The notes under the pieces: generated by a model
What the model was told of the DNA's origin: nothing
Seen by the model: the letters and a program-made list of their open reading frames with translations, nothing else
Database searches by the model: none
Assembly (NCBI RefSeq): GCF_020037015.1
Contig: NZ_JAIQDE010000012.1
Span: 186,001-250,000 of the forward strand
Length of the DNA stretch: 64,000 nt
Reading direction: 5' to 3'
DNA from: Corallococcus sp. AS-1-6
Lineage (GTDB): Bacteria > Myxococcota > Myxococcia > Myxococcales > Myxococcaceae
Made by a program: the position numbers and the translations under genes
Shown here: in pieces, positions 16,353-31,746 of the stretch
How positions within the stretch are numbered: the stretch's first letter is position 1
How the letters are laid out: the number at the start of each line of letters is the position of its first letter

Positions 16353-17297
16353 TCAGGAACGGGGCGCGCGGTAGGCGGGGAAGAAGTCCTCGCCCGCGTG
16401 CCCCTGGGACAACTGCGCGTACGCTTCCGGGTCGCAGATGATGTCGTGCGTGTAGAACCGGGACATCGCGTTGGCGAAGCCGCGCTTGAACCGCTCGACG
16501 CCGTCGCCCGGCCGGACGCCGCCGCCCAGGTGGACGCAGGCCTCCAGCTTCTCCGCCAGCTCCACCATCACCGGGAACTCGTTCTTCGCCGGTGAATGCA
16601 TCCGGTACGCGTCCGCCGTGCCGTCAATGAAGTCGTGCAGCAGCCCGTCGCTCAGCACCACCAGCGCGGAGGAGGCCACCGCCCCGTCCGGCGCGCGCGT
16701 CGTCACCAGCCACGCGAAGGGACAGGTGAAGACCTCCTCGAACCAGGCGTCGGAGAAGGAGTACCGCACCCCGTCCTGCTGCCGGGCCAGGGTCTGCCGG
16801 TGGATGGCCTTGAGCGCCTGGCGCTGCTCCTGCGTGGAGTCCTTCACCGGAACGACGGAGCTGACGTAGCCGAGCCGGGCGTTGCGCCGGATGTCCGCCC
16901 CGTGGTCGCCGCGGAACTTCAGCGGCAGCTTCGGGTCGATGAGGCACACCTCCCCGCGCAGCCGGCCGCCCGCGAAGCAGTACGGCCCGCCAATGCGGTC
17001 GCGCAGGAAGATGCTGACCAGCTCCGTGCCCCGCCAATCAATGGCATCCACCGGCACCTCGGAGAGCCCGTTCAGCTCCGCCCCGGGAAACCCATACGGA
17101 GAGACCGCGTCCCGGTAGCCCGTGCCTTCAATGGGCCGCACGATGAGCGGCACCCGGAGCGCCCGCCCCGCCCCGTCCTCCACGATGAGGCTGTGCGTCA
17201 CGCCCTCCGCGCGCAGGTGCTGCTCGGAGCGGAAGTAGTCAGCCGAAACGGCGCGCTGGCCTCCGTCAGGGACGAGGACGGCTCTCCACGGTGCCAT
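16353..17297 (-). CDS. GNAT/FemAB-like N-acyltransferase, paralogue of 28332-29288
   Basis: A 314-residue protein of the FemAB/GNAT superfamily. It shares long identical blocks with the 28332-29288 product over its whole length, including AVSPYGFPGAELNGLSEVP, RGTELVSIF, the donor-site region HLGGGVRPGDGVERFKRGF and the C-terminus FFPAYR. The pair flank the polysaccharide operon. In Myxococcus xanthus the spore-coat exo locus also encodes two such acyltransferases with an aminotransferase, which suggests acylation of an aminosugar; orthology is not shown. I chose the ATG at 17297, where the similarity begins; a GTG at 17306 is close by. It is divergent from the Wza gene. Confidence 0.8.
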   Translation of the reverse strand: MAPWRAVLVPDGGQRAVSADYFRSEQHLRAEGVTHSLIVEDGAGRALRVPLIVRPIEGTGYRDAVSPYGFPGAELNGLSEVPVDAIDWRGTELVSIFLRDRIGGPYCFAGGRLRGEVCLIDPKLPLKFRGDHGADIRRNARLGYVSSVVPVKDSTQEQRQALKAIHRQTLARQQDGVRYSFSDAWFEEVFTCPFAWLVTTRAPDGAVASSALVVLSDGLLHDFIDGTADAYRMHSPAKNEFPVMVELAEKLEACVHLGGGVRPGDGVERFKRGFANAMSRFYTHDIICDPEAYAQLSQGHAGEDFFPAYRAPRS

Positions 17298-17504
17298 TGG
17301 ATTCACGGGTGCGCCCCCCGGGCGGAAACAGCGGGCCTGACAGTGCCCGGAACAGCCAGAGGGTATGTGGATGGGACCCAGGTCCGTCACCGCCCCCCGG
17401 GGTGCAGCGCGGATGTCCTGATTCCAGCGCTTCGCGCCCCCCTCAGCCCCCCAGGGCAGGACATGTGTCACCTCACCAGCGGGGCATAACGGCTTCCAGA
17501 CATT

Positions 17505-17556: not shown

Positions 17557-18678
17557 ATGAAACACGTCCTGTTATTGGCCGCGGTGTCTTGCCTGAGCGC
17601 ATGCGCCTGGGGCCCGGGAATGCATATGGACGAGGACGCCTTCCGGGAGCGTTACGAGGGAAAGGCAGACGCTGGCGCGGACGGCGCCTACGACATCATC
17701 CCCATCGACGCGTCCCTCATCAGCCACCAACTGGAGGAGCGCAGGCAGGCGCGGCCCGCGCCCCTGGTGGATCCGCTGGCGCAGGTGGCCACCGACTATG
17801 ACTACCGGGTGACGCCGCACGACGTGCTGAGCGTCATCGTCTGGGACCACCCGGAGCTCACCATCCCCGCTGGCGAGTTCCGCCCCGCAGAGACCGTGGG
17901 CAACCCCGTGGCGGCGGACGGCACCATGTTCTACCCCCACGTGGGCCTCATCCCCGTCGCGGGCAAGACGCTGCGGGAGATCCGCGAGCTGCTCACGCAG
18001 CGGCTGGCGAGCGTCATCGAGAAGCCCCAACTGGACGTGCGCGTGGTGGGCTTCCGCGGCCAGAAGGTCCAGGTGACGGGCGAGGTGGTGGCCCCCGGCA
18101 CCCTGCCCGTCACCGACGTGCCCCTGCGCGTGCAGGACGCCATCGCCCAGGCGAAGGGCTTCGGCCCGGAGGCGGACCTGCGCACCGTCACCCTCAGCCG
18201 GGGCGGCACCACCTTCACGCTCGACCTGCAGGCCCTCTACGAACAGGGGGACGTGAGCCAGAACTGGCTGCTCCAGGACGGCGACATCCTCAACGTGGCG
18301 GACCGCAGCCGCAACAAGGTCTTCGTGCTGGGAGAAGTCCGCAGGCCCTCCTCGCGCGTGATGGTGAAGGGCCGGATGACGCTGGCGGAGGCCATTGGCG
18401 ACAGCGAGGGCTTCGACCCGCTCACGTCCAACCCGGGCCGCGTCTATGTCATCCGCGGCAGCTTCGAGCGGCCCTACATCTTCAAGCTGGACGCGAAGTC
18501 GCCGGACGCGCTGCTCCTGGCGACACATTTCCAATTGCAACCGCGCGACGTCATCTTCGTCTCCGCGCACGACCTGACACGTTGGAATCGCATCATCCAG
18601 CAAATCCAGCCAACAGTTCAGCTGCTCTGGCAGGCAGTGGATATCGGAGACAGAACCATCATCATCAACAACCCATGA
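17557..18678 (+). CDS. Wza-family outer-membrane polysaccharide export lipoprotein
   Basis: A 373-residue lipoprotein (lipobox LSAC, Cys16), close to the 379 residues of E. coli Wza. A poly_export domain begins at DYDYRVTPHDVLSVIVW, followed by SLBB domains (VQVTGEVVAPGTLPVTDVPLRVQDAI and VFVLGEVRRPSSRVMVKGRMTLAEAI). A C-terminal amphipathic segment with Trp and Gln (IIQQIQPTVQLLWQAVD) should form the outer-membrane helical barrel. It forms the export channel of a Wzx/Wzy system and opens the operon. Its stop codon overlaps the Wzc start (ATGA). The long intergenic region before it, shared with a divergent acyltransferase gene, carries the promoter. Confidence 0.95.
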   Translation: MKHVLLLAAVSCLSACAWGPGMHMDEDAFRERYEGKADAGADGAYDIIPIDASLISHQLEERRQARPAPLVDPLAQVATDYDYRVTPHDVLSVIVWDHPELTIPAGEFRPAETVGNPVAADGTMFYPHVGLIPVAGKTLREIRELLTQRLASVIEKPQLDVRVVGFRGQKVQVTGEVVAPGTLPVTDVPLRVQDAIAQAKGFGPEADLRTVTLSRGGTTFTLDLQALYEQGDVSQNWLLQDGDILNVADRSRNKVFVLGEVRRPSSRVMVKGRMTLAEAIGDSEGFDPLTSNPGRVYVIRGSFERPYIFKLDAKSPDALLLATHFQLQPRDVIFVSAHDLTRWNRIIQQIQPTVQLLWQAVDIGDRTIIINNP

Positions 18679-20879
18679 CGAGCCCCCCTGAACGCGTGAC
18701 GCCGCCCCGCCCCGGCCCCGGCACGCAGGACGATGAGCTGGGATTGGGTCGATACCTGGCCATCCTGGGGGAGCGCCGCGGCACCATCGCGGCGTGCGTC
18801 GCCCTTGCCCTGGCCGTGGGCGGGCTGTACTTCCTCACCGCGGCGCCGGTGTACCGGGCCAACGCCATCCTGCGCATCGAGCAGAAGGGCAGCAGCCTGG
18901 GCCAGTTGGACGCGCTGATTCCAGACGCGCCCAGCCTGGCGGCCCCGGAGATGGAGGTCCTGGGCTCCAGGGCGCTGCTGGGGCGCGTGGCGGACGCGCT
19001 GAACCTGGGCGTGAGCGTGCGGCCCCGCTACTTCCCGCTGGTGGGCGCGGCCCGCGCCCGGGCGCACGCGGGGCCGGACCTGGCGCCGGTGCCGTGGTGG
19101 GGCGGGGCCTCCTTCGCCTGGGGCGGAGAGAAGCTCCAGGTGGAGCGGCTGAACGTGCCCACGGAGTGGGAGGACCTGCCGCTCACGCTCGTGGCGGACG
19201 CGGACGGCGCGTACACGCTGCGGGGCCCCGAGGGGGGCGTGGTGCTCCACGGCGCCGTGGGCACCGACGCCCGGACGGAGGCTGGCGCGGCCCATGAGGT
19301 GGAGCTGCTCGTCACCGCGCTGCACGCCCGGCCGGGGACGCGCTTCCAGGTGACGCGCCGCTCGAAGCTCGCGGTGGTGGAGGAGCTGCAGCGCGCGCTG
19401 CGCATGGGGGAGAAGGGCGCCGGCACGGGCGTGCTCAACCTGACCCTGGACGCGCCCGACCCGGTGCTGGCCACCACCCTGCTCCAGAACATCGCGGACA
19501 CGTACGTGCGCTCCAACGTGGAGCGCCGCAGCGACGAGGCGGGCCGCACGCTGTCGTTCCTGGACAGCCAGCTCCCCGGGCTGCGCCAGAGCCTGGAGCA
19601 GGCGGAGGCCGCGCTGCGCGACTACCGCGCCGGCAAGGGCGGCGTGGACCTGGGGCTGGAGGCGCAGGCCGTGCTCAACCGGAGCGTGGACCTGGACAAG
19701 GACCTCTCCACGCTCGCGCTGGAGCGCTCGGAGCTCCGGCAGCGCTTCACCGAGCACCACCCGCTGCTCGTGGCCATGGAGCGCAAGCTGGCCCGCCTGC
19801 GCACGGAGCGCAGCGCGCTGGACACCCGGCTCAAGGGGCTGCCGGACGCGGAGCGGGTGTCCGCCCAGCTCACGCGCGACGTGAAGGTGGCCAACGAGCT
19901 GTACCTCCAACTGAACAACAAGGCCCAGGAGTACCGGGTGCTCAAGTCGAGCACCATCACCAACGCGCGCATCATCGACGCGCCCGTGGTGACGCGCCTG
20001 CCCGTGCGCCCCGCGAAGCAGGACGTGTTCGCGGTCAGCCTGGTGCTGGGGCTGGTGTCCGGCGTCGCGCTGGCCTTCGCGCGGCGGTCGCTGCAACCGG
20101 GCGTCACCGACCCCGCGGCCCTGGAGTCCGCGCTCGCGGTGCCCGTCCTCGCCAGCATCCCCACCGGCCCCCGCCGCGCGGCGTCCCCGCGCGGCCCCTC
20201 CATCGTCCTGGCGCGCAGCGTCCCCCGGGACGTCACCATCGAATGCGTGCGCGGCCTGCGGACCCGGCTCCAGCGGGCCATGAAGGAGGCGGGCAGCCAC
20301 GTCGTCACCCTCACCGGCACGGGCCCCGGCGCCGGGACGTCCTTCATCACCCTCAACCTGGCGTGGCTGCTGGCGGAGACCGGCCAGCGCGTGCTGCTGG
20401 TGGACGCGAACCTGCGCGGCGGCTGGCTGCACCGGTGCTTCCGCGAGGCGCGTGTCCCCGGCCTCCACGAGGTGCTGCGGGGCACCGCGACGCTGGAGCA
20501 GGCCCTGCTCCAGGAGGCCGCGCCCGGCCTGTCGTTCCTGGGCGCGGGCGCGCTCCCGCCGGACCCGGCGGAGCTGCTGGCCGGCGCGGCGTTCGACACG
20601 TTCGTGGCGCGCGTGGCGGCCGAGTACGACGTCGTCCTCTTCGACACGCCCTGCATCCTCGCGGTGACGGACGCGGCGCTGGTGGGCCGGCACGCGGGCG
20701 TGCGGCTGGCCGTGGTGCGCGCGGCGACCCAGTCCCTGCGCGAGGTGGCCACCGCGCTGCACCAACTGGAGCAGAGCGGCGTCCCGGCCCGGGGCGTGGT
20801 CCTCAACGGCGTGCCGCGCTCCCGGACGGGCCGCGCGGTGAGCGGCGTCTACCAATACGAATACCCGTCCGCGGGCTGA
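18675..20879 (+). CDS. Wzc-like polysaccharide copolymerase with degenerate tyrosine-kinase domain
   Basis: A 734-residue inner-membrane protein. A Wzz domain has its first membrane helix at about 38-58, then a long periplasmic coiled region and a second helix near 450-470 (VFAVSLVLGLVSGVALAFA). The cytoplasmic part is a BY-kinase fold. Walker A reads GTGPGAGTSF, so the essential Lys is Thr555. Walker A' has DANLR instead of DxDxR (D577, N579). Walker B is intact (VVLFDTP, D657). The tail carries Tyr726, Tyr728 and Tyr730. The copolymerase function is clear, but kinase activity is doubtful. Translation is coupled to Wza. Confidence 0.92.
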   Translation: MTSPPERVTPPRPGPGTQDDELGLGRYLAILGERRGTIAACVALALAVGGLYFLTAAPVYRANAILRIEQKGSSLGQLDALIPDAPSLAAPEMEVLGSRALLGRVADALNLGVSVRPRYFPLVGAARARAHAGPDLAPVPWWGGASFAWGGEKLQVERLNVPTEWEDLPLTLVADADGAYTLRGPEGGVVLHGAVGTDARTEAGAAHEVELLVTALHARPGTRFQVTRRSKLAVVEELQRALRMGEKGAGTGVLNLTLDAPDPVLATTLLQNIADTYVRSNVERRSDEAGRTLSFLDSQLPGLRQSLEQAEAALRDYRAGKGGVDLGLEAQAVLNRSVDLDKDLSTLALERSELRQRFTEHHPLLVAMERKLARLRTERSALDTRLKGLPDAERVSAQLTRDVKVANELYLQLNNKAQEYRVLKSSTITNARIIDAPVVTRLPVRPAKQDVFAVSLVLGLVSGVALAFARRSLQPGVTDPAALESALAVPVLASIPTGPRRAASPRGPSIVLARSVPRDVTIECVRGLRTRLQRAMKEAGSHVVTLTGTGPGAGTSFITLNLAWLLAETGQRVLLVDANLRGGWLHRCFREARVPGLHEVLRGTATLEQALLQEAAPGLSFLGAGALPPDPAELLAGAAFDTFVARVAAEYDVVLFDTPCILAVTDAALVGRHAGVRLAVVRAATQSLREVATALHQLEQSGVPARGVVLNGVPRSRTGRAVSGVYQYEYPSAG

Positions 20880-20902: not shown

Positions 20903-22183
20903 GTGAGCTGGCTGAGCTGCACAGGACTGGGCTTCATCGCGGCGCTCTACGTGCTCGCGGGCCGCTGGGGCTTCCACCGGCTGGGCCTCGCCGTCAACGA
21001 GGAGGTGGACACGAACCTCATCCTGGAGCTGCGGCTGTGGATCGTCCTGTGCGGGACGCTGCTCGCCTCCGTGGGGCTTTTGCACCGCGCCCGCCGCGAC
21101 GCGCGCCCCGGCGAGGCGCGGTTCGACCCGCCGCTCATCGCCGCCCTGCTGGGCTTCCTGGGCTACATGTGCGCCAGCACCGCCTGGTCGCCCGACCCGC
21201 TCTTCTCCCTGACCAAGGTCTGCGACCTCCTGCTGGTGGGGATGATGTGCGTGGGCTTCGCGCTGGCCTGCTTGCGCCAGCCCGCGCCCCGGGTGCTGGA
21301 CGCGTTCTGGGCCGCCGTCGTCGCGGCCACGGCGCTGCTCGCGCTCACCGGCGTCAAGCAACTGCTGGGGGGCGGCGCGGGCGCGCGGCTCGCGGTGATG
21401 GGCGGCGGGCCCAACATCTTCGCGCGGCTCATGGGGCTGCTCGCCATCGGGGCGCTCTACTTCTGGTACTGGAAGGGCCAGGCGTGGTTCTGGATTCCGG
21501 TGGCCGCCACCGGCGTCGTGCTGGCGCTGCTCACGGGGTCGCGCGGCGGCTCCGCCGCCATCACCGCGGGCATCATCACCTGCCTCGTGGTGGGGCGCGT
21601 GCCGCTGCGCCGGCTGCTGCTGCTGCTGCTGCTGGCGACCGCCGCCATCACCGCGGTGGCCATGTTCTCCCCGCTGGGGGAGGCGCTGAGCAACTCCGTG
21701 CAGGAGCGCTTCCTGCGCCTCACCCTCAACTACGAGGCGGGCGCGGGCGGCGCCAGCAGCAACGACGGCAAGGTGTACCTGTCCGGGCGGGAGATCCTCT
21801 ACGCGAGGGCGCTCCAGTTGGGCGAGGACTACCCGGTGGCGGGGGCGGGGCTCGCGGCGTTCCCCGCGCTGCGCCTGGGCGTCTACCCGCACAACCTCTT
21901 CCTGGAGGTCTTCTGCGAGGGCGGCGTCGTGGGGCTGCTGCTGCTCGCGACCGTGCTCGCCACCTTCGCGCGCTCGGCGCTCCTGCGGCGCCAGGGCCTG
22001 GACGGCGCCACCGTGGGCGCGGCGGTGCTGGTGCTCCTGGGCAGCCAGGCCAGCGGCGACCTCTACGACAGCCGCGCCCTCTTCCTCTTGATGGTGATGG
22101 CCTCCGCGACCGCGGTCCCCGGACGCCAGCCCGCGCAGTCGGGCACGCCCCTTCCCCAACCTTCATTCACAGGAGCCGTCTGA
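20903..22183 (+). CDS. Wzy/O-antigen-ligase family polysaccharide polymerase
   Basis: A 426-residue membrane protein with about eleven hydrophobic helices and a large periplasmic loop near residues 260-320 (after SNSVQERFLRLTLNY, containing SGREILYARALQLGEDYPVAGAG and YPHNLFLEVF). This loop is the signature of the Wzy_C/O-antigen ligase family, with the conserved HN-x-x-L/F. It should polymerise lipid-linked repeat units in the periplasm. The start is GTG at 20903, preceded by GGGAGG at a spacing of about 8 nt. It lies 23 bp after Wzc in the same operon. Confidence 0.9.
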   Translation: MSWLSCTGLGFIAALYVLAGRWGFHRLGLAVNEEVDTNLILELRLWIVLCGTLLASVGLLHRARRDARPGEARFDPPLIAALLGFLGYMCASTAWSPDPLFSLTKVCDLLLVGMMCVGFALACLRQPAPRVLDAFWAAVVAATALLALTGVKQLLGGGAGARLAVMGGGPNIFARLMGLLAIGALYFWYWKGQAWFWIPVAATGVVLALLTGSRGGSAAITAGIITCLVVGRVPLRRLLLLLLLATAAITAVAMFSPLGEALSNSVQERFLRLTLNYEAGAGGASSNDGKVYLSGREILYARALQLGEDYPVAGAGLAAFPALRLGVYPHNLFLEVFCEGGVVGLLLLATVLATFARSALLRRQGLDGATVGAAVLVLLGSQASGDLYDSRALFLLMVMASATAVPGRQPAQSGTPLPQPSFTGAV

Positions 22184-22184
22184 C

Positions 22185-23408
22185 ATGCGCATCGTCTACC
22201 TGCATCAGTACTTCAACACCCCCACCATGCACGGGGGGACGCGCTCCTATGAGCTCGCGCGGCGCCTGGTCTCCATGGGCCACGAGGTCCACATGGTGAC
22301 GTCCGACACCCGCACGGACGTCCGCCCGGGCAAGGGCTGGCGCGAGTCCAACGAGAGCGGCATCCAGGTGCACTGGCTGCCGGTGCCCTACAGCAACGCC
22401 ATGAGCTACCCGGACCGCATCCGGGCCTTCAGCCACTTCGCGGTCAACTCCACGCGGCGCGCCGCGCAACTGCCCGCGGACGTCTTCTTCGCCACCAGCA
22501 CGCCGCTCACCATCGCGGTGCCGGGCATCGCCGCGTCGCGGTGGAACAAGCGGCCCATGGTCTTCGAGGTGCGCGACCTGTGGCCCGCCATCCCCATCGC
22601 GGTGGGCGCGCTCAAGAGCCGCTCCGCCATCCTGGCCGCGCAGCTCCTGGAGAAGGCCGCGTACGCGGGCGCGGAGCACATCGTCGCGCTGTCGCCGGGC
22701 ATGAAGGCGGGCGTGGAGGCGGCGGGCGTGCCGCCGGAGAAGATCACCATCATCCCCAACCTCTGCGACCCGGAGCGCTTCCAGGTGCCGGCGTCCGCGG
22801 GCCAGGCGTTCCGCCAGAAGTACGCGTGGCTGGGGGACAGGCCCCTGGTGCTGTACGCGGGCACGCTGGGGCTGGTGAACGGCGTGGAGTACCTGGTGCG
22901 GGTGGCCGCGGAGATGCGGAAGCTGGACCCGGAGGTCCGCTTCGTCATCATGGGCAAGGGCCGTGAAGAGGCCATGCTGCACTCGCTGGCGGAGCGGCTG
23001 GGGGTGAAGGACCAGAACCTCTTCTTCCTGCCCAGCGTGCCCAAGGAGCAGGTGCCCGCGGTGCTGAACGCCGCCACCATCGCCACGTCGCTGTTCACGG
23101 ACGTGCCGGGCATGCAGGACAACTCCGCCAACAAGTTCTTCGACGCGCTCGCCGCGGGCCGTCCGCTGGCGCTCAACTACGGCGGCTGGCAGGCGGAGCT
23201 GCTGGACCGGGAGGCCTTCGGCCTCAGGCTGCCGCCCAGGGACATCCCCGCCGCGGCGGCCATGCTGGCCAGACGGCTGCGCGACCCGCGCTGGCTGGCG
23301 GAGGCCGGCGCGCTGGCCGGGAAGCTGGGCCGGGAGCGCTACTCCGCGGACATCGCGGCCCGGCGGCTGTCAGAGGTCCTGCAGCGCGCGGCGGCGGCAC
23401 GGTCATGA
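22185..23408 (+). CDS. GT4-family glycosyltransferase
   Basis: A 407-residue GT-B enzyme. The N-terminal domain opens with MRIVYLHQYFNTP and a glycine-rich GGTRSYELARRL. The C-terminal domain has the GT4 pattern VLYAGTLGLVNGVEYLVRVA, VRFVIMGKGREE, and the donor loop PGMQDNSANKFFDALAAGRPLALN with the E-x7-E positions partly altered. It should transfer a sugar to the growing repeat unit on the cytoplasmic face. It is the only glycosyltransferase in the operon besides the initiating enzyme, so further transferases are probably encoded elsewhere. Its stop overlaps the flippase start by four bases. Confidence 0.92.
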   Translation: MRIVYLHQYFNTPTMHGGTRSYELARRLVSMGHEVHMVTSDTRTDVRPGKGWRESNESGIQVHWLPVPYSNAMSYPDRIRAFSHFAVNSTRRAAQLPADVFFATSTPLTIAVPGIAASRWNKRPMVFEVRDLWPAIPIAVGALKSRSAILAAQLLEKAAYAGAEHIVALSPGMKAGVEAAGVPPEKITIIPNLCDPERFQVPASAGQAFRQKYAWLGDRPLVLYAGTLGLVNGVEYLVRVAAEMRKLDPEVRFVIMGKGREEAMLHSLAERLGVKDQNLFFLPSVPKEQVPAVLNAATIATSLFTDVPGMQDNSANKFFDALAAGRPLALNYGGWQAELLDREAFGLRLPPRDIPAAAAMLARRLRDPRWLAEAGALAGKLGRERYSADIAARRLSEVLQRAAAARS

Positions 23409-24730
23409 CCGCGCGCTCGGTGGGGAGCAACTTCATCTGGTCGCTCTCCGCCGGGCTCGTCTACGCCCTCGCGCAGTGGGGCGTCCTGGTGGCCTTCGCG
23501 CGGCTGGCCACCATGGAAGAGGTGGGCCAGTTCGCGCTCGCCCTGGCCATCACCGCCCCGGTGCTGCTGATGGCCCGCATGCAACTGCGCACGCTCCAGG
23601 CCACGGACGCCAGGAGCACCTTCGGCTTCGAGCACTACCTGGGCCTGATGGTGCTCAACGTCGTGGCGGGCGTGGCGGTGTGCTGCGCCATCGCCACGGC
23701 GATGGCGGACTCCCTCCACGCGGCCTGGGTCATCGCGCTGGTGGCGCTGGCCAAGGGCTTCGAGGCGGTAAGCGAGGTCTTCTACGGCGCGCTCCAGAAG
23801 GCGGAGCGGCTGGGGCTCATCGCCCGGTCCACCATCGCCAAGAGCGTGCTGTCCGTGGTGCTGGTGCCGCTGGCGCTGTGGCTCACGCACAGCCCCATCG
23901 CCGGCGCGGCGGCCCTGGCCTTCGCCTGGGCCATCGTCCTCTTCTTCTTCGACGCCAGGGCGCTCCAGCGCGAGTTCCCCGGCATGCGCTCCTGGAGCAC
24001 CCTCTGGCGCACGCCGTGGCGCACGGAGGGAAGGCGGCTCAAGGCCCTCTTCCTGCTGTGCTGGGTGCTGGGCCTCACTGCCCTGCTGGCGGCGCTGAGG
24101 CCCAACATCCCCCGCTACCTCCTGGAGGCGCACGCGGGCCAGGCGGAGCTGGGCATGTACGCCGCGCTCGCGTACTTCGCCGCGCTGGGCGGCCGGGTGG
24201 TGCACTCGCTGGGGCAGGCCGTCAGCCCCCGGCTGGGCCGCTACCACGCGGCGAGGGACGCGCGCCGCTACGGCAGGGCGCTGGCGGGCTTCACGGCGGC
24301 GTCCGCGGTGGTGGGCCTGTGCGCCATCGCCGGCGCGGCGCTGCTCGGCCGGTGGGCGCTGACGCTCTTCTACGGGGCCGCCTACGCCAGGAACCTCACG
24401 CTGTTCGTCTGGCTGATGGGGGCCGCGGCGCTGGAGTACGTCTGCTTGAGCCTGGCGGTGGGCCTCACCGCGGCGCGCGAGCTCAAGGGACAGGTGGTGC
24501 TGCTCGTCGTCTCCGTGGCCGTGGTCGCCCTGGGCAGCGCGGTGTGGGTGCCGCGCGTGGGCCCGGTGGGGGCCGCCTGGGCCCTGGGGCTGGGGTGGGT
24601 GTCGGAGCTGACATGCAGCGTCTGGCTGACGACGCGCGTCTGGCGGCGGCTGACCGCCCCGGAGCCCGCGCAGGCGCTCCAGGCCGTCCCACCGGGCCCC
24701 GTGGATGCACGGGAGCCGACAGCGGGCTGA
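23405..24730 (+). CDS. Wzx-family flippase (oligosaccharide repeat-unit translocase)
   Basis: A 441-residue membrane protein with about twelve hydrophobic helices and the MATE/MOP layout. The first helices are NFIWSLSAGLVYALAQWGVLV and VGQFALALAITAPVLL, and a repeated half starts near residue 215. It should flip undecaprenyl-linked repeat units to the periplasm for the Wzy polymerase. ATGA overlap with the glycosyltransferase couples translation. The gene ends 68 bp before the sugar-transferase gene. Confidence 0.9.
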   Translation: MTARSVGSNFIWSLSAGLVYALAQWGVLVAFARLATMEEVGQFALALAITAPVLLMARMQLRTLQATDARSTFGFEHYLGLMVLNVVAGVAVCCAIATAMADSLHAAWVIALVALAKGFEAVSEVFYGALQKAERLGLIARSTIAKSVLSVVLVPLALWLTHSPIAGAAALAFAWAIVLFFFDARALQREFPGMRSWSTLWRTPWRTEGRRLKALFLLCWVLGLTALLAALRPNIPRYLLEAHAGQAELGMYAALAYFAALGGRVVHSLGQAVSPRLGRYHAARDARRYGRALAGFTAASAVVGLCAIAGAALLGRWALTLFYGAAYARNLTLFVWLMGAAALEYVCLSLAVGLTAARELKGQVVLLVVSVAVVALGSAVWVPRVGPVGAAWALGLGWVSELTCSVWLTTRVWRRLTAPEPAQALQAVPPGPVDAREPTAG

Positions 24731-24798: not shown

Positions 24799-25545
24799 AT
24801 GCAAAGACAGGCAGGAACCGGGTTGTTCCTCAAGCGGTGCATCGACGTGGTGGCGGCGGGTCTGGGATTGCTATGCCTTTCCCCGGTGATGGCCGCCACG
24901 GGACTGTTCGTCCGCCTGACCCTGGGGGGCCCCGTCCTCTTCCGGCAGCGGCGCCCGGGGAAGCACGGCCAGCTCTTCACCGTCCTCAAGTTCCGCACGA
25001 TGCTGGAGGCCACGGACGCGAACGGCCAGGCGCTGCCGGACGAGCAGCGCCTCACCTGGGCCGGGCGGCTCTTGCGCTCCACCAGCCTGGACGAGCTGCC
25101 GCAGTTGTGGAACGTGCTCCGGGGCGACATGAGCCTCGTGGGGCCCCGCCCGCTGCTCGTGGAGTACCTGCCGCGCTACTCCGCGGAGCAGGCGCGGCGC
25201 CACGACGTGCTGCCCGGCATCACCGGCTGGGCGCAGGTCAACGGCCGCAACGCGCTCTCCTGGGAGGAGCGCTTCCGCCAGGACGTCTGGTACGTGGACC
25301 ACTGGAGCCTGGCGCTGGACCTGAAGGTGCTGCTGCTCACGGTGGTGCGCGTGCTGCAGCGCCAGGGCATCTCCTTCGCGAGCGAGGCCACCATGCACAA
25401 GTTCATGGGCACCCCGCAGCCGGAGGCCAGGGTCATGGCGCTCCGGCAGCAGGAGCAGGCCCCCGTCAGCCCGCCGTCCGCAGCCCCTGTCGCCGGGGAA
25501 CGGCGCGGACCACCTCCACCACCCGCTCGAGCTCCCGGCGCGTGA
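24799..25545 (+). CDS. Initiating polyprenyl-phosphate sugar-1-phosphate transferase (short PHPT)
   Basis: A 248-residue monotopic membrane enzyme that should link the first sugar-1-phosphate to undecaprenyl phosphate. A basic N-terminus (FLKRCIDVVAAGLG) leads into one membrane hairpin, then the signature DELPQLWNVLRGDMSLVGPRP with the catalytic Asp-Glu pair, and PGITGWAQVNGRN. It lacks the N-terminal four-helix domain of WbaP, so it is of the PglC type. The Pro-rich tail (about 220-248) is odd: the last 80 bp overlap the 3' end of the convergent aminotransferase gene, so the tail may be an evolved extension. GGAG stands about 10 nt before the ATG. Confidence 0.93.
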   Translation: MQRQAGTGLFLKRCIDVVAAGLGLLCLSPVMAATGLFVRLTLGGPVLFRQRRPGKHGQLFTVLKFRTMLEATDANGQALPDEQRLTWAGRLLRSTSLDELPQLWNVLRGDMSLVGPRPLLVEYLPRYSAEQARRHDVLPGITGWAQVNGRNALSWEERFRQDVWYVDHWSLALDLKVLLLTVVRVLQRQGISFASEATMHKFMGTPQPEARVMALRQQEQAPVSPPSAAPVAGERRGPPPPPARAPGA

Positions 25546-26617
25546 GGTTGGAGCCGGACGGCAGGCACAGGCCGTGGCGGAACAGGTCCTCCGCCACGCT
25601 GCCCCGCCGCCGCGCGAAGCCCGCGAAGACGGGCTGCAGGTGCATGGGCTTCCACACCGGCCGCGCCTCGATGTCCTCCCGCTCCAGCGCGGTGCGCACC
25701 GCCTCCCGGTCCGCGCCGAACGCCTCCGGGTCGATGGTGAGCGTCGTCAGCCAGCGCGTGTGTCGGCCCCACGGGGCCTCCGGCATGAAGTCGATGCCCG
25801 GCAGGTCCCGGAAGGCCTCCGCGTAGAAGGCGTGGTTCGCGCGGCGCGCGGCCACCCGGTCCTCCAGCACGTGCAACTGCCCCCGCCCGATGGCGGCCAG
25901 CACGTTGCTCATCCGGTAGTTGTAGCCAATCTCCGAGTGCTGGTAGTGCGGCGCCGCGTCGCGCGCCTGCGTGGCCAGCTTGAGGGCGTGCCGCACCAGC
26001 TCCCCGTCCGCGGACACCAGCATCCCGCCGCCGGACGTGGTGAGGATCTTGTTGCCGTTGAACGAATAGATGCCCACGCGGCCCACCGTGCCGGGGGCCC
26101 GCCCCTTGTAGGTGCTGCCCAGGGCCTCCGCCGCGTCCTCCACCACCGGCACGCCGTAGCGGTCGCAGGCGGCCATCAGCGGCTCCAGGTCCGCGCTCTG
26201 GCCGTACAGGTGCACCACCACCACGGCGCGGGGCAGCCGGCCCAGGCGGGCCCGCATCGCCAGCTCCTCCTCCAGCAGCGCGGGGTCCATGTTCCAGGAC
26301 GTGCGCTCGCTGTCGATGAAGACGGGGCTGGCGCCCAGGTAGCGGATGGGGTTCACCGACGCGGAGAAGGTGAGCGTGCTCACCAGCACGTCGTCGCCGG
26401 GCCCCACGCCCACCAGTTGGAGCGCCAGGTGGAGCGCGGCCGTCCCGGAGCTCAGCGCCAGCGCGTGCGGCGTGCCCACGCACCGGGCGAACTCCTCCTG
26501 GAAGGCATCGACATGGGGCCCCAGGGGGGCAATCCAGTTGCTCGCGAACGCGTCATCGACGTAGCCGCGCTCGAGCGTGCCCAGGTGGGGCGAGGACAGG
26601 TAGATGCGGGAGGACAT
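25466..26617 (-). CDS. DegT/DnrJ/EryC1 sugar aminotransferase
   Basis: A 383-residue PLP enzyme. The N-terminus IYLSSPHLGTLERGYVDDAF is typical of the family. The PLP site has SGTAALHLAL, VVEDAAEALGSTYKGR and the Schiff-base lysine in SFNGNKILTTSGGGM. It should aminate a 4-keto (or 3-keto) NDP-sugar, which fits with the membrane dehydratase at 29367 supplying the keto sugar and the acyltransferases modifying the new amine. The ATG at 26617 has GGAG 7 nt upstream. The 3' end overlaps the convergent PHPT gene by 80 bp, and no terminator separates them. Confidence 0.93.
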   Translation of the reverse strand: MSSRIYLSSPHLGTLERGYVDDAFASNWIAPLGPHVDAFQEEFARCVGTPHALALSSGTAALHLALQLVGVGPGDDVLVSTLTFSASVNPIRYLGASPVFIDSERTSWNMDPALLEEELAMRARLGRLPRAVVVVHLYGQSADLEPLMAACDRYGVPVVEDAAEALGSTYKGRAPGTVGRVGIYSFNGNKILTTSGGGMLVSADGELVRHALKLATQARDAAPHYQHSEIGYNYRMSNVLAAIGRGQLHVLEDRVAARRANHAFYAEAFRDLPGIDFMPEAPWGRHTRWLTTLTIDPEAFGADREAVRTALEREDIEARPVWKPMHLQPVFAGFARRRGSVAEDLFRHGLCLPSGSNLTRRELERVVEVVRAVPRRQGLRTAG

Positions 26618-26680
26618 GCGAAGACTCCAGGCAGGACCGGGCATACGCAACCCCGGCATTGCCTGGAGCGTTCGCACACT

Positions 26681-26712
26681 CCCTCCTCCCGCGCGCTCGG
26701 GCGGGAGGAGGG
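26681..26712 (-). terminator. Hairpin terminator behind the 26742-28109 gene
   Basis: A perfect 12-bp stem (CCCTCCTCCCGC and its complement) with an 8-nt loop, about 30-60 bp downstream of the lipoprotein stop on the minus strand and upstream of the aminotransferase start. It probably separates the two minus-strand units. Confidence 0.65.
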
Positions 26713-26741
26713 GGTGTCTGTTCCGCATCGTGGAATTCGGA

Positions 26742-28109
26742 CTAGAGCGCCGAACCCGCGCCCAGCAGCTTCGCGTTGAGCGCGCCGTTGCCGTAGTACT
26801 GCGTGTTGTTGCCCACGGTGTGGGTCTCCAGACGCTGCTGGAGGGTGGCGTTGTAGCGGCCCAGCTTCATCAGGCCGTCATTGAACCAGCCCGTGCCGCT
26901 GCCCGTGCCGTCCACGTAGTTGGCGTACTTCTTGGCGGACGGCCAGATGACGTTGTTCAGGGTGACCACGAACTTGCGCATGTCCGCGTCCGTCCACTCC
27001 ATGCCCGCGTCGTGGGCTTCCACGAGGTAGGCCATCACGCCGTTGCCGTGCGCCACGTCCTGGCCCGGACGCTTCTTGGAGCCCCACTCGGCGGCCCAGA
27101 AGTACGCGTTGGCGTTCACCGGGCTGGTCATCAACTGACCGCGCAGCGACGAGGTGTTGTTCGGCATGTCACGGTTGATGTTGTTGAAGACGGTCAGGTA
27201 CTGCGCCTTCTTCGTGGCGTCCGTCGTCATCATGGACAGGTCCATGGAGATGTACGCCCAGTGCGACGCCATGTGCGTGTTGACGCGGTAGATGTAGCTG
27301 TTCGCGCCGCGCTTGAGCCACTTCTCGAACATGTTCCGCTCGGTGAACGCCAGCAGCTTGTCGTACTGCGCCTTGTACGTGGCGTTGCCGTAGAGCGCGG
27401 GCGTCTCACGGATGGTGCGCAGCATGCGCGTCACGTAGCGCCAGCAGTAGCTCTCGAACAGGGGGACCTCCTGGCCCAGCGTGTCCGAGCGGGCGGACGC
27501 CCAGCCCATGTAGCTGTCCTTGAACTGGCTGCGGGGCAGCGAAGAGGACACCTTCGCGTTGTTGACCACGTTGTTCACATACAGCAGCGCCCGGTCCATG
27601 TACTGCGTCTTGCCCGTGGCGCGATACATCGCGGTGTTGCCGTCGATGCCGTAGGCCAGGTTGTAGAACTGCCAGCTATCCAGCGACTTGCTCATGGGCA
27701 GGAAGCTGGAGGTGTGCTCCGAATTCCAGCGGTTCAGGAAGAGCGTCTCCCAACCCGCGACGGTGCGCAGGCTGACGGCGGCCTGGGCGTTCGAGCCGAG
27801 CCCCTCCTCTCCAGTGGAGGGCGCGGGCACTTCCGCGGAGGCAGGGGCGTCCGCCTCCGGGGTGGAGGGAGCAGCCTCGCTCCCCGGCTCGGAGGGGGCC
27901 GCCGCGATCTCCTCGGGGGAAGAGGGAGCGAGCGTCTCCTCCTCGCCAGGGGCGGGGATGTCGGTGCTGTCCGGGGTGTTGTCTCCGTTGGGACTGGCCG
28001 TGCTGGCCGCGTCCTGCTCGGGGTTGGGGCCGCAGGCACCACCCACCAGCAGGGCAAGCGACAACAGGGACGACAGGGCACGACCAGAGTTGCGACGAGG
28101 TTCCAACAT
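26742..28109 (-). CDS. Lipoprotein, possible alpha/alpha-toroid lyase or hydrolase
   Basis: A 455-residue lipoprotein with lipobox VGGAC, then about 90 residues of Ala/Pro/Ser/Glu-rich linker, then a compact helical domain rich in Trp, Tyr and Asn (SLDSWQFYNLAYGIDGNTAMYRATGK, THMASHWAYISMD, NGVMAYLVEAHDAGMEW). The repeated helix pairs and conserved aromatic, His and Asn residues recall alpha/alpha-toroid polysaccharide lyases and hydrolases such as the AlgL group, but I cannot name a family. Periplasmic or surface lyases are common in Wzx/Wzy loci, where they trim or clear polymer. The ATG at 28109 starts the signal; the upstream region is AT-rich. Confidence 0.7.
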   Translation of the reverse strand: MLEPRRNSGRALSSLLSLALLVGGACGPNPEQDAASTASPNGDNTPDSTDIPAPGEEETLAPSSPEEIAAAPSEPGSEAAPSTPEADAPASAEVPAPSTGEEGLGSNAQAAVSLRTVAGWETLFLNRWNSEHTSSFLPMSKSLDSWQFYNLAYGIDGNTAMYRATGKTQYMDRALLYVNNVVNNAKVSSSLPRSQFKDSYMGWASARSDTLGQEVPLFESYCWRYVTRMLRTIRETPALYGNATYKAQYDKLLAFTERNMFEKWLKRGANSYIYRVNTHMASHWAYISMDLSMMTTDATKKAQYLTVFNNINRDMPNNTSSLRGQLMTSPVNANAYFWAAEWGSKKRPGQDVAHGNGVMAYLVEAHDAGMEWTDADMRKFVVTLNNVIWPSAKKYANYVDGTGSGTGWFNDGLMKLGRYNATLQQRLETHTVGNNTQYYGNGALNAKLLGAGSAL

Positions 28110-28190
28110 CAGGGGGGTCCTGTGGGGTAGCTCCAGCCGGCAGGCCGTTGGGCTACCCTGTTGTGGGAACGCCGGAGTGCGTTCACAGGA

Positions 28191-28208
28191 CGCCAAAAGC
28201 ATTTGGCG
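28191..28208. promoter_or_regulatory. Inverted repeat in a divergent AT-rich promoter region
   Basis: CGCCAAA-AGCA-TTTGGCG, a perfect 7-bp inverted repeat with a 4-nt spacer, lies in the 222-bp gap between the divergent lipoprotein (28109, -) and acyltransferase (28332, +) genes, just before an unusually AT-rich stretch (about 28200-28260) likely to hold promoters. It could be an operator controlling either gene. Confidence 0.4.
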
Positions 28209-28331
28209 GCACACGTAATTCCTTTGTGATTAGACAAAAAGAAAATGATGACTGTCCGTGAGTCTTCAGACCGGCGCCCCGTGGGCCTGTCCGCCTGAGC
28301 CGGCATGTGTGTCATCAGGGGTGGGGGATGT

Positions 28332-29288
28332 ATGACGAGGGCAGGGCAGGCGAGCGCCATGCTGGTTCCCGACGCGGGAGCCTCGGCGCTCTCCGGGCAG
28401 TACTTCCGCTCCGGGCATCACCTACGCGCCGAGCAGGTCACCCATACGCTGGTCGTCAAAAACGATACAGGCGGGATGTTACACGTGCCACTCATCGTGC
28501 GAGCGATTGAGGGGACTCCGTATCGCGACGCCATCTCTCCCTATGGCTTTCCGGGCGGTGAGCTGAACGGGTTGAGCGAGGTGCCTGCACCTGCCGTGGA
28601 TTGGCGGAGCACGGAGCTGGTCAGCATCTTCGTGAGGGAGCGGGTTCAGGGACCGCACTGTTTCACGGGAGGCACGGCGCGCAACGAGGTCTTCTTCGTG
28701 GACCCTTGCCGCCTGCTCACACCCCGGGAGATGCACCGCCGGCACATGCGGCGAAACGTCCGGCTGGGGTTCGTGAGCACGGTGTGCGCGGCCCGGGACG
28801 CGCCCCCCGAGGAGCGCGCGGGGTTTCGCGACGTGTACCGGCAGACCATGGTGCGGGACCAGGCGTGCCACCGGTACTTCTTCTCCGACACGTACTTCGA
28901 GGAGCTGTTCGCGTCCCCGGAGGCCTGGCTCGCGACGGCGCGCGCGCCGGACGGGACGGTCGCGTCCGCGGCCCTGGTGGTCCGCAGTGACGGGCTCCTG
29001 CACTACTACCTGGGCGGCACGGCGGACGCGCACCTGGGGCGCTCCCCGGCGAAGAACGTCTTCGGGGAGATGATCTCCCTGAGCCAGCGGCTGGGGCTCC
29101 CGCTCCACCTGGGGGGCGGGCTCACGCCGGGGGACGGCCTGGAGGACTTCAAGCGCGGCTTCTCCAACGCCAGCGGGCGCATCCACACGCACGAAATCGT
29201 CTGCGACGCGGCGGTGTACGCCACGCTGTCGGAGGGCCGCGCCGCCAGCGGCTTCTTTCCGGCCTACCGCTCGCCTCTCCGCCCCTGA
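28332..29288 (+). CDS. GNAT/FemAB-like N-acyltransferase, paralogue of 16353-17297
   Basis: A 318-residue protein with the same organisation as the 16353-17297 product. Shared blocks include AISPYGFPGGELNGLSEVP, RSTELVSIFVRERV, HLGGGLTPGDGLEDFKRGF and the terminal FFPAYRSP. A GNAT-like acyl transfer to an amino sugar or its precursor is the likely job, in keeping with the aminotransferase next door. Start ATG 28332 follows a GGGGG run at about 5 nt; the upstream ATG at 28305 would add nine residues outside the conserved region. The gene is transcribed toward the convergent sugar dehydratase. Confidence 0.8.
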   Translation: MTRAGQASAMLVPDAGASALSGQYFRSGHHLRAEQVTHTLVVKNDTGGMLHVPLIVRAIEGTPYRDAISPYGFPGGELNGLSEVPAPAVDWRSTELVSIFVRERVQGPHCFTGGTARNEVFFVDPCRLLTPREMHRRHMRRNVRLGFVSTVCAARDAPPEERAGFRDVYRQTMVRDQACHRYFFSDTYFEELFASPEAWLATARAPDGTVASAALVVRSDGLLHYYLGGTADAHLGRSPAKNVFGEMISLSQRLGLPLHLGGGLTPGDGLEDFKRGFSNASGRIHTHEIVCDAAVYATLSEGRAASGFFPAYRSPLRP

Positions 29289-29366: not shown

Positions 29367-31349
29367 TCAGGCGCTGACGTTCTGCTCCGCCGCGGACGGC
29401 TTCACGGGGGCGAAGACGGGCAGCACCTTCGCCACCGTCGCCGGCATCTTCGACGGGGTGTACGCGGGGATGAGCTCCTGGAGGGCGCGCTTCACGTCGT
29501 GGGAGTCACCGGCGCGGGCCGCGCGGTCCAGGCGCTTGAGCTGGATCTGGAAGTCCGCGGGCGGCGCGGGGCTCTTCGCCACCTTGATGCGGTTGCGCAC
29601 CTGCTGGGTGAGCTCCTCCTCCTCGGACATGAGCACCTCCTCCAGCTTCTCCCCGGGGCGCAGCCCCGTGTAGACGATGGCGATGTCCTTGTCCGGCACC
29701 AGGCCCGTCATGGTGATCATGTTCGCGGCCAGCTCCGCGATGCGGACCGGCGCGCCCATGTCCAGGATGCACAGCTCGCCGTAGCCGCCCAGGCCGGCCA
29801 GCACCACCAGGCCCACCGCCTCCGGGATGATCATGAAGTAGCGGGTGCAGTCCGGGTGGGTGACCGTGACGGGGCCGCCCGCTTGGATCTGCTGCTTGAA
29901 GAGCGGCACCACGCTGCCCGCGGACCCCAGCACGTTGCCGAAGCGGACGGCGCAGAAGGTGGTGCGCGACGTCACGGCGATGTCCCGGATGACCATCTCC
30001 GCCAGCCGCTTGGAGGCCCCCATCACCGACGAGGGCTTCACCGCCTTGTCGGTGGAGATGAGGATGAAGCGCTCCGCGCCGCACGCGTCCGCCATGCGCG
30101 CCACGTTCTGCGTGCCAAAGACGTTGTTCTTGATGGCCTCCTCCGGCGCGTCCTCCATCAGGGGCACGTGCTTGTGCGCGGCCGCGTGGAAGACGTACTG
30201 CGGCGCGAACTCCTGGCCAATGCGCAACATCCGGTCCAGGTCGCGGATGTCCGCCACCACGGAGTGCACCGGCACGTGCGGGTAGCGCGCCTGGAGCTGG
30301 CGCACCAGCAGGTAGAGTTCGTTCTCGTTGATGTCCACCACCACCAGCGACGCGGGCGAGTGCCCCGCGACCTGTCGGACGATTTCACTGCCGATGGAGC
30401 CCGCGCCGCCGGTGACGAGGATGCGGCGGCCCGTCACCAGCCGGTGCACCTCCTGATGGTCGAACGAGATGGCGTCCCGGGGCAGCAGGTGCTCCGGGGC
30501 CAGGTCGTGCAGCATGGCGGCGGTGATCTTCTGGTCCAGGTAGGCGAACGAGGCCGGGATGATCTTGAAGCTGACGCTCTGGTGCCGGCACAGGCTCAAG
30601 AGGTGCCGGGTGCGCTCCGGGGACAGCCGGGGGATGGCGATGAGCACCTGCGTCACCCGGTGCTTGCGCATCAACTCCGGCAGCGCGTCCAGCACGCCGA
30701 GCACCGGCTTGCCGTTGAGGAAGGTGCCCTGCTTGCCCGGGTCGTCATCCACCAGCCCGATGACGTGCCACGGGCTCTTGCGGTCCCTCAGCAGGTCGCG
30801 CAGGAGCAGGTCCCCGGCGCTGCCCGCGCCCACGATGAGCGTGCGCTGGGAGCCCTGCGCCTTCGCGCGCTGCCGGTCCAGGTACCACTGCCGGGCCATG
30901 CGCGGCGCGAAGCGGTGAAAGCCCAGGAGCGTGGTGGTGATGAAGAACTCCAGCGCGACCACCTGCCCCGGCAGCGACTCCATGAAGAAGATGGCGCGCA
31001 GCAGCTCGAACACGATGGTGCCCGCGAGGCTGGCCAGCTCCAGCCGGACCGCCTCGTGGATGCCGGAGCGGTGGAAGGACCAGCGGTGCAGCCCCAACCA
31101 GACGAGCGTCACCAGGCGCACCGCGACCAGGAGCGCCACGGCCCGGGGCAGGACAGCCCTGCAGGCCGGCGACAGCCCGTCCGCGAAGTGCAGCATCGTG
31201 GCGGCGACCAGCGAGCCGGCGATGAGGACCGCGTCCACGCCCAGCATCCGCAGCCAGCCGAAGCGGTGGGTCCTCCGCGGCGCATGCTCCGGGGTTTCCC
31301 GAACCCCCAACTCCAGGCTCATCGCTTCCAGACCCTGACCGTGTTTCAT
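29367..31349 (-). CDS. Membrane-bound NDP-sugar dehydratase/epimerase (WbpM/CapD/FlaA1 family)
   Basis: A 660-residue inner-membrane enzyme. Four hydrophobic helices (about 30-155) precede a first Rossmann domain (LIVGAGSAGDLLLRDLL) and a second SDR domain (ILVTGGAGSIGSEIVRQV). The catalytic motif STDKAVKPSSVMGASKR has Met in place of the usual Tyr, as known for the WbpM/FlaA1 dehydratases. It should convert a UDP-GlcNAc-type donor into a 4-keto-6-deoxy sugar for the DegT aminotransferase. I chose ATG 31349 because GGGGGTGAG stands just upstream; ATG 31322 is an alternative. Sequence upstream of 31349 in the same frame looks non-coding. Confidence 0.92.
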   Translation of the reverse strand: MKHGQGLEAMSLELGVRETPEHAPRRTHRFGWLRMLGVDAVLIAGSLVAATMLHFADGLSPACRAVLPRAVALLVAVRLVTLVWLGLHRWSFHRSGIHEAVRLELASLAGTIVFELLRAIFFMESLPGQVVALEFFITTTLLGFHRFAPRMARQWYLDRQRAKAQGSQRTLIVGAGSAGDLLLRDLLRDRKSPWHVIGLVDDDPGKQGTFLNGKPVLGVLDALPELMRKHRVTQVLIAIPRLSPERTRHLLSLCRHQSVSFKIIPASFAYLDQKITAAMLHDLAPEHLLPRDAISFDHQEVHRLVTGRRILVTGGAGSIGSEIVRQVAGHSPASLVVVDINENELYLLVRQLQARYPHVPVHSVVADIRDLDRMLRIGQEFAPQYVFHAAAHKHVPLMEDAPEEAIKNNVFGTQNVARMADACGAERFILISTDKAVKPSSVMGASKRLAEMVIRDIAVTSRTTFCAVRFGNVLGSAGSVVPLFKQQIQAGGPVTVTHPDCTRYFMIIPEAVGLVVLAGLGGYGELCILDMGAPVRIAELAANMITMTGLVPDKDIAIVYTGLRPGEKLEEVLMSEEEELTQQVRNRIKVAKSPAPPADFQIQLKRLDRAARAGDSHDVKRALQELIPAYTPSKMPATVAKVLPVFAPVKPSAAEQNVSA

Positions 31350-31746
31350 CTCACTCACCCCCTGAAGCCCGGCGTGCACGGGAGATCCGCCGTCCCCCCG
31401 CATACGCAGTGCGAAGGGCACGCCCAGACTCGAAGCCCTGAACAAAGTGGACGCGCGTCCAGTGAGGCTGAAGCTGTCCGAGAGTGCTGTAGAACCAGGA
31501 TTCTGGGGAAGCGTGGGCCACCGGGCGAACACCCCGTCCCCCGGGGCCGACGTCCAGACAGGTCCCCGCCGCCCCCCGCCACGGAGTGCGCGCGGCCCCT
31601 CACGCCGGACGGGGTATTGTTTCAACGCCGTGACACCCCTCCCGCGCATGAGGGGCATAGCCGGCCCCTTCAGGCAGGGGGCCGCGGCGCCGGGCTGACA
31701 CTTCGCGCGCCTTGCTCCGCCCAGGTCCGCCCGCCACGCTGGGGCC
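31350..31746. other. 397-bp gap between divergent genes
   Basis: This gap separates the dehydratase gene (-) from the phosphatase gene (+). It holds a 12-bp palindrome GGACGCGCGTCC (31449-31460) and a 7-bp stem (CGGCCCC, 31662-31668, with GGGGCCG, 31678-31684; 9-nt loop) in front of the phosphatase gene. I see no gene and no clear promoter motif. Confidence 0.5.

Follow-up and report, generated by a model that had tools for sequence, protein, structure and literature searches.

A probable fused tyrosine pseudokinase with a conserved tyrosine tail in the Wzc-type co-polymerase of Corallococcus

Does a polysaccharide co-polymerase (PCP) of the Wzc type need cycles of tyrosine phosphorylation, or is the right oligomer alone sufficient? 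Until now, the question has been approached with engineered mutants. A natural case may be offered by the soil bacterium Corallococcus sp. AS-1-6, in a stretch of 64,000 nucleotides (hereafter the window) of contig NZ_JAIQDE010000012.1, positions 186,001 to 250,000; in our numbering of its 9.50 Mb genome of 82 contigs, the window is C3:186001-250000. The open reading frame at 18675-20879 of the forward strand encodes a wzc-like protein of 734 amino acids. Judged by alignment, its bacterial tyrosine kinase (BY-kinase) domain has lost the catalytic lysine and the second aspartate of Walker A', and kept the parts that clamp Wzc subunits together. We consider it probable, at roughly 0.6, that this domain is a tyrosine pseudokinase, fused to the co-polymerase and retained as a structural ring, and the protein a naturally clamped, phosphorylation-independent co-polymerase resembling the K540M mutant of Wzc or the K551A mutant of VpsO.

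The gene and the motifs in question, in window coordinates, are:

18675-20879, forward strand: wzc-like co-polymerase (PCP-2a type) with a putative fused BY-pseudokinase domain, 734 amino acids; WZC_N, GNVR and Wzz domains and a match to solved Wzc.
20241-20261, forward strand: ExxRxxR oligomerisation motif (E523, R526, R529), intact; unchanged in all 27 clade genes and all 29 canonical Wzc genes, as defined below.
20322-20342, forward strand: Walker A loop GPGAGTS by motif alignment, with Lys replaced by Thr555 (20337-20339) and G552, G554 and Ser556 retained.
20403-20417, forward strand: Walker A' DANLR by motif alignment, with the second Asp replaced by Asn579 (20409-20411).
20643-20654, forward strand: Walker B DTPC by motif alignment, with Asp657 retained and the second Pro replaced by Cys660.
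20742-20744, forward strand: Glu690, equivalent of the tyrosine-pocket Glu (E675 of K30 Wzc); the residue is Glu in all 27 clade genes.
20850-20864, forward strand: tyrosine tail YQYEY (Y726, Y728, Y730); Y726 and Y728 in 27 of 27 clade genes, Y730 in 25 of 27.

The architecture is that of a PCP-2a (Wzc) protein: the periplasmic part, with the WZC_N, GNVR and Wzz domains found by domain search, is fused to a cytoplasmic BY-kinase fold, and the gene lies alongside wza, wzy, wzx and a sugar-phosphate transferase gene. The protein is most likely the polysaccharide co-polymerase of a Wzx/Wzy pathway. Solved Wzc aligns to residues 19-728 with an E-value of about 1e-126, and the PDB matches include 7NHR, the engineered Lys-less form K540M (PMC8285477; this and the other papers are cited from excerpts, to which our statements about them apply). 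Among the hallmarks of an active BY-kinase, the Walker B Asp (D657) and the C-terminal tyrosine cluster (Y726/Y728/Y730) are present; the Walker A Lys (Thr555) and the Walker A' DxD (here DAN) are missing. The domain thus has a BY-kinase fold, by sequence homology, without the catalytic residues, in one polypeptide with the co-polymerase part. Automatic annotation should be read with this in mind: the protein stays under the cut-off of the NCBIfam Wzc equivalog (503 versus 1068 bits), and passes the curated cut-off for 'polysaccharide biosynthesis tyrosine autokinase' (126.7 versus 108.05 bits) despite its missing catalytic residues.

Residues were mapped by counting along the printed alignment with E. 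coli K30 Wzc, which is ungapped from residue 519 through the motifs at an offset of +15. K540, D562, D564, D642 and E675 of K30 Wzc correspond to T555, D577, N579, D657 and E690. The codon of Thr555, within GPGAGTSF, is ACG (20337-20339), and that of Asn579, within DANLR (residues 577-581), is AAC (20409-20411). Asp657 sits in LFDTPC, where Cys660 takes the place of the second Pro of DTPP. The original prediction, made from this sequence alone, had named Thr555, Asn579, D657 and the three tail tyrosines, and every one of these residues is correct; Cys660 had escaped it. In the tail, Y730 aligns with Y715 of K-12 Wzc in a match of equal length, a register less secure than that of the motifs. 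We take the Y715-D564 bond described for E. coli Wzc, discussed below, to refer to the K-12 structure. Because the C-terminal linker (residues 715-717) aligns uncertainly, the E33-R715 ion pair is left out of the evidence. An AlphaFold model of the protein, with a mean predicted local distance difference test (pLDDT) score of 41 from a 9-row alignment, was discarded.

The substitutions are a property of the genus. An orthologue is present in 15 of 16 Corallococcus genomes; G004 is without one, and G008 holds residues 17-500 alone. In the 14 genes with a readable kinase half, residue 555 is Thr in 12, Ala in 2 and Lys in none, as the proposed alignment with homologues was meant to reveal, and no stop lies within the match in any of them. 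In the family Myxococcaceae, a match at E <= 1e-60 is found in 29 of 96 genomes. This patchy occurrence outside Corallococcus suggests repeated loss or transfer.

We compared two sets of genes. The clade set consists of the 27 orthologues with DANLR that remain after removal of half genes and duplicates. The canonical set comprises all further matches listed in a search of 179 genomes at E <= 1e-100: 29 genes in 18 genomes. Two of these genes belong to G016, another Myxococcaceae genome, and the rest come from other families of the order. Dropped before these counts were L001 (the gene of the window itself, entered once as P0001); L002 and L003 (the genome's other kinases, L002 being aligned but uncounted); L004, L005 and L045-L056 (weak or other-family matches or repeat places); L019, L020 and L029 (half genes or fragments); L044 (the L058 gene); and L021-L028 (repeat rows of the genes L008, L012, L015, L035, L033, L036, L037 and L013). 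The two canonical relatives in G016, a genome of genus g2, are L095 (G016:C6) and L099 (G016:C4), one of them in a partly similar cluster.

Asn579 occurs in all 27 clade genes and in none of the 29 canonical genes: Walker A' reads DAN throughout the former and DxD throughout the latter. The Walker A Lys is lost in 19 of the 27 (16 Thr, 3 Ala) versus 0 of 29. The remaining eight, from two genera (codes g7 and g19), combine Lys with Asn579, so that the Asn is shared with relatives that retain the Lys, a point absent from the original prediction. By identical C-terminal sequence, g7 and g19 include Hyalangium versicolor, Pyxidicoccus species and Myxococcus sp. RHSTA-1-4. Replacement of the second Walker B Pro is confined, within the clade, to Corallococcus (14 of 14, Cys or Ser).

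Invariant in 27 of 27 are E523, R526, R529, P551, G554, S556, D577, R581, D657, E690, Y726 and Y728, and G552 is retained in all 19 Lys-less genes. Y730 is missing in L014 and L042, both Lys-less (2 of 19, versus 0 of the 8 Lys-keeping genes). The tail holds three tyrosines in 25 of 27 clade genes and two in the other two; at least four are found in 25 of 29 canonical genes. Invariance by itself proves nothing for a given residue: of 232 columns in the kinase region, 71 do not vary across the 27 genes, and canonical genes, too, show little or no variation at most of the positions named here.

In a maximum-likelihood tree built with columns 555, 579 and 659 blanked, the 27 Asn genes form one clade (support 100/98) with one D/N change. 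As all 27 share Asn579 through that one change while eight retain Lys, the Asp-to-Asn replacement is, on this tree, the older step and the Lys loss the younger. Parsimony counts two changes for the Lys loss, and a single Lys-less clade is not rejected (approximately unbiased (AU) test, p 0.302); reading the unresolved forks, we conclude that Lys was probably lost one to three times. The Asn clade makes up 21% of total tree length, and branch length alone gives mild support to the idea that Lys losses are favoured in an Asn background.

Selection was estimated as omega, from a mutation-bias-corrected count on codons differing at one base only; pairs are non-independent, and the ranges reflect the assumed mutational GC. 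Uncorrected NG86 dN/dS mostly gives higher omega at such GC content. In Lys-less Corallococcus, omega is 0.22-0.35 for the kinase domain, 0.13-0.23 for the active-site stretch, 0.11-0.17 for the tail and 0.20-0.35 for the periplasmic part. The kinase domain gives 0.13-0.22 in Lys-keeping g19 and 0.15-0.26 in seven canonical genes of another family. By this measure, the domain is under purifying selection in Corallococcus, somewhat relaxed, and to call its active site 'broken', as was done originally, is misleading for a domain conserved in 14 readable genes of the genus.

How would such a protein work? Lost chemistry, kept clamp parts and Asn in place of D564 form together the pattern expected of a naturally clamped co-polymerase. 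The kinase domain would not autophosphorylate. The tyrosine tail would serve as a clamp, its hydroxyls docking in the dead active site of the neighbouring subunit, where Asn579, though uncharged, could still take the hydrogen bond that D564 receives in Wzc. The subunits would stay octameric, perhaps nucleotide-bound, keep Wzy active and hold the Wza channel; ring cycling, if any, would be driven by something other than tyrosine phosphorylation.

Several observations in known systems agree with this picture. Y715 of E. coli Wzc is reported to hydrogen-bond D564, a contact that phosphorylation breaks by charge repulsion (PMC7485978); in K30 Wzc it is Y717 that lies at the active site, and Y715 bonds E675 (PMC8285477). 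The YxY motif has been described as a clamp, and the K30 octamer dissociates only after the fourth phosphorylation (PMC11986026), which we count for the clamp because clade tails hold three tyrosines or fewer. The octamers of K540M Wzc are stable both in the apo form and with ADP-Mg (PMC8285477), and the Wza-Wzc channel, too, is stabilised by this mutant (PMC12881504). VpsO K551A is unphosphorylated and highly oligomeric, and over-produces polymer; most tail-tyrosine mutants of VpsO and the ExxRxxR mutant lower production, one tyrosine pair making no such difference (PMC7485978). The earlier view that control of polymer length would be lost therefore overreaches; the loss of autophosphorylation that it also foresaw is well supported by the sequences, with the Lys gone, Asn579 fixed in the clade and no relocated Lys possible in the Lys-less orthologue L009. 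Tentatively, and at somewhat under even odds, we propose a stepwise conversion of phospho-cycled autokinases to permanently clamped co-polymerases: the D564 equivalent became Asn, dropping the charge that repels phosphotyrosine while perhaps sparing the tyrosine hydrogen bond, Lys then gave way to Thr or Ala, and the tail would have been kept only as an unphosphorylated clamp, with export running without tyrosine phosphorylation.

A number of points weigh against a clamped pseudokinase. The capsule of K30 Wzc is held to require cycling between phosphorylated and unphosphorylated forms (PMC11986026), and a permanent clamp would therefore call for another mode of working. Two of the 19 Lys-less genes have lost Y730, so a Y730-N579 bond is not essential in all of them. 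Purifying selection on tail tyrosines does not separate a clamp from a phospho-acceptor. Constraint on the Corallococcus kinase domain falls short of that in Lys-keeping g19 by a factor of about 1.6 and is also weaker than that in the seven canonical genes, and the tail of g6 and g3 together is under little constraint (omega 0.50-0.87, from 19 changes). The phosphatases do not help either. A strong Wzb match (E about 1e-31 or better) is present in 16 of 18 canonical-Wzc genomes versus 0 of 27 clade genomes. Of the 29 canonical wzc genes, 12 have such a match at a distance of up to 5 kb and 14 at up to 25 kb. However, 95 of 96 Myxococcaceae genomes are without a Wzb match at E <= 1e-22 whatever their Wzc; the absence, though it fits the clamp, is thus one confounded event, and Wzb loss was dropped as independent support, along with the p-value of a Fisher test that takes related genomes as independent. 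All 45 genomes compared hold a member of the phosphatase Pfam family over its cut-off, many of them weaker ones only. The sole strong Wzb-type match (E <= 1e-22) among the 96 family genomes is in genus g2. A search of the AS-1-6 genome for CpsB/CapC-type phosphatases gave no match at E <= 0.01.

The tail might instead be phosphorylated in trans by another BY-kinase of the cell, BtkA-like or BtkB-like, with phospho-control outsourced, as the original prediction had suggested when it spoke of another kinase taking over. The search for a separate BY-kinase does yield two other places above the family cut-off, on contigs C82 and C21, both with Lys and DxD intact. The C82 kinase is fused to a co-polymerase part of its own, and the C21 kinase is stand-alone, adjoining a Wzz-domain protein and a sugar transferase; in layout they resemble BtkB and BtkA of Myxococcus xanthus, named from the description in PMC12004946 and not by sequence comparison. 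The conserved tyrosine tail speaks for this explanation. So do two weaker members of the Wzb-phosphatase Pfam family in the genome (E 1.6e-16 and 4.9e-12), which could reverse the reaction. We take them to be arsenate-reductase-like, while either could still be a tyrosine phosphatase. Yet each of the two kinases has its own co-polymerase, fused or adjacent. The genome has no strong Wzb-like match (E <= 1e-22). Conservation of the tail is also explained by hydroxyl contacts for oligomerisation, and an inactive subunit was not phosphorylated in trans in vitro, as excerpted from PMC7485978. With Y730 also missing from two Lys-less genes, we regard phosphorylation in trans as unlikely.

Less likely still is a slow or atypical nucleotide enzyme, with ATP bound by the P-loop despite its missing Lys and some other basic residue acting as substitute. 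The invariant G554, Ser556 and Asp657 would suit it, as would the ADP-Mg found in crystals of CapA1B2 K55M (PMC3795738), but no substitute Lys is conserved: K537, a candidate for a relocated catalytic Lys, is widespread, yet several Lys-less genes do without it, and residues 515-734 of L009 contain not one Lys. Mutation of K540 abrogates Wzc phosphorylation (PMC8285477), VpsO K551A is inactive (PMC7485978), and here an active-site Asp has been replaced as well, by Asn579. That the gene or its kinase half is decaying without a role is very improbable. Constraint is somewhat weaker than in Lys-keeping relatives and one of 16 Corallococcus genomes is without an orthologue, but the 14 readable genes have no stop in the match, omega is well under 1 and lowest at the active site and tail, and the stretches inspected still carry the pathway cluster. 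A sequencing or assembly error, finally, is ruled out for practical purposes: all 14 readable Corallococcus genes, which come from separate assemblies and in three cases from single-contig genomes (G003, G013, G014), have Thr or Ala in place of Lys.

A clamped pseudokinase would not be without precedent. Like E. coli Wzc, the protein has ExxRxxR, the Walker B Asp, the tyrosine-pocket Glu and a tyrosine tail in a near full-length alignment, with wza, wzx and wzy alongside; unlike it, it has Thr for K540, Asn for D564, Cys for P645 and three tail tyrosines, in a genome without a strong Wzb-like match. As in VpsO K551A (PMC7485978), the Walker A Lys is exchanged for a small residue with tyrosine tail and ExxRxxR intact. 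However, the VpsO state is engineered, in a parent that has the phosphatase VpsU, and the Corallococcus state is natural and common to relatives in the genus. The Walker A' Asp of VpsO K551A is presumably intact.

Co-polymerases are also known in pairs with BY-pseudokinases, EcpK with EpsV in M. xanthus and HfsB with HfsA in Caulobacter (PMC12004946). The same source describes EcpK as a stand-alone BY-pseudokinase, cites HfsB and proposes a phosphorylation-independent subfamily of co-polymerases; as excerpted, EcpK (without all three Walker motifs) and HfsB (without the catalytic residues) are separate proteins with no tyrosine tail. The Corallococcus domain is of another type, being fused, point-substituted and equipped with its tail. 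Through PMC12004946, we know by description of four fused PCP-2/BY-pseudokinases listed by Cuthbertson et al. (SMc01795, BCETI_6000729, Mlr8439 and VV1_2305), which like the Corallococcus protein join a co-polymerase and an inactive kinase in one polypeptide and may be closer to it. PssP2 is fused too, but by the account in PMC4182512 lacks Walker A, A' and B and the tyrosine cluster. CapB1 of Staphylococcus aureus has the BY-kinase fold and bound nucleotide with no detectable activity in the excerpts of PMC3795738; unlike the protein described here, it is the stand-alone member of a Gram-positive co-polymerase pair. Fused pseudokinase co-polymerases are thus already known, and the retained tail, the point substitutions and the living intermediates in sister genera make this one a variant. 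Neither the Corallococcus protein nor the graded Asn/Lys series is described among the matches listed in the open-licence literature.

The rest of the polysaccharide cluster follows, in window coordinates:

17557-18678, forward strand: wza-type outer-membrane export protein (Poly_export, SLBB, Wza_C), overlapping the wzc start by 4 bases.
20903-22183, forward strand: wzy polymerase candidate (Wzy_C).
22185-23408, forward strand: glycosyltransferase of family 4 type (domain match).
23405-24730, forward strand: wzx flippase candidate (Polysacc_synt).
24799-25545, forward strand: initiating sugar-1-phosphate transferase, short form of 248 amino acids (Bac_transf).
25466-26728, reverse strand: DegT-family sugar aminotransferase; best NCBIfam match the LegC family, under its cut-off.

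The forward-strand order is therefore wza, wzc, wzy, glycosyltransferase, wzx and short sugar-phosphate transferase, followed by the convergent aminotransferase gene, whose 3' end overlaps that of the transferase gene by 80 bases (25466-25545). The order wza-wzc-wzy-glycosyltransferase is kept in 17 of 17 clade stretches inspected, which represent 16 distinct clusters, and in the window no separate kinase gene would fit between wza and wzx; we count both points for the fused pseudokinase. A scan of the sequence for sigma-70 promoters found none.

Next to the cluster lies a gene for a 490-residue protein (26742-28214, reverse strand) with no Pfam or NCBIfam match; it is present in 13 of the 17 clade stretches, the other four ending before the gene. 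Two related genes, at 16353-17471 (reverse strand) and 28305-29288 (forward strand), flank the cluster, each matching the other's region in relatives; one of the pair is GNAT-like (Acetyltransf_6). An 820-residue frame at 29367-31829 (reverse strand) resembles nucleotide-sugar dehydratases (Polysacc_synt_2 and CoA_binding_3) and perhaps shares a sugar pathway with the cluster; it seems to be extended too far at its beginning, where it overlaps the gene at 31747.

Altogether, the clade offers Asn/Lys, Asn/Thr and Asn/Ala as natural states of a single orthologous pathway, and the nearest outgroup has Asp/Lys. The series makes the choice between oligomer and phosphorylation directly testable, and could separate the two jobs of the tyrosine tail, phospho-acceptor and clamp. 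If the clamped pseudokinase is the true state of the Corallococcus protein, export of its polymer would run without tyrosine phosphorylation despite an intact tail.

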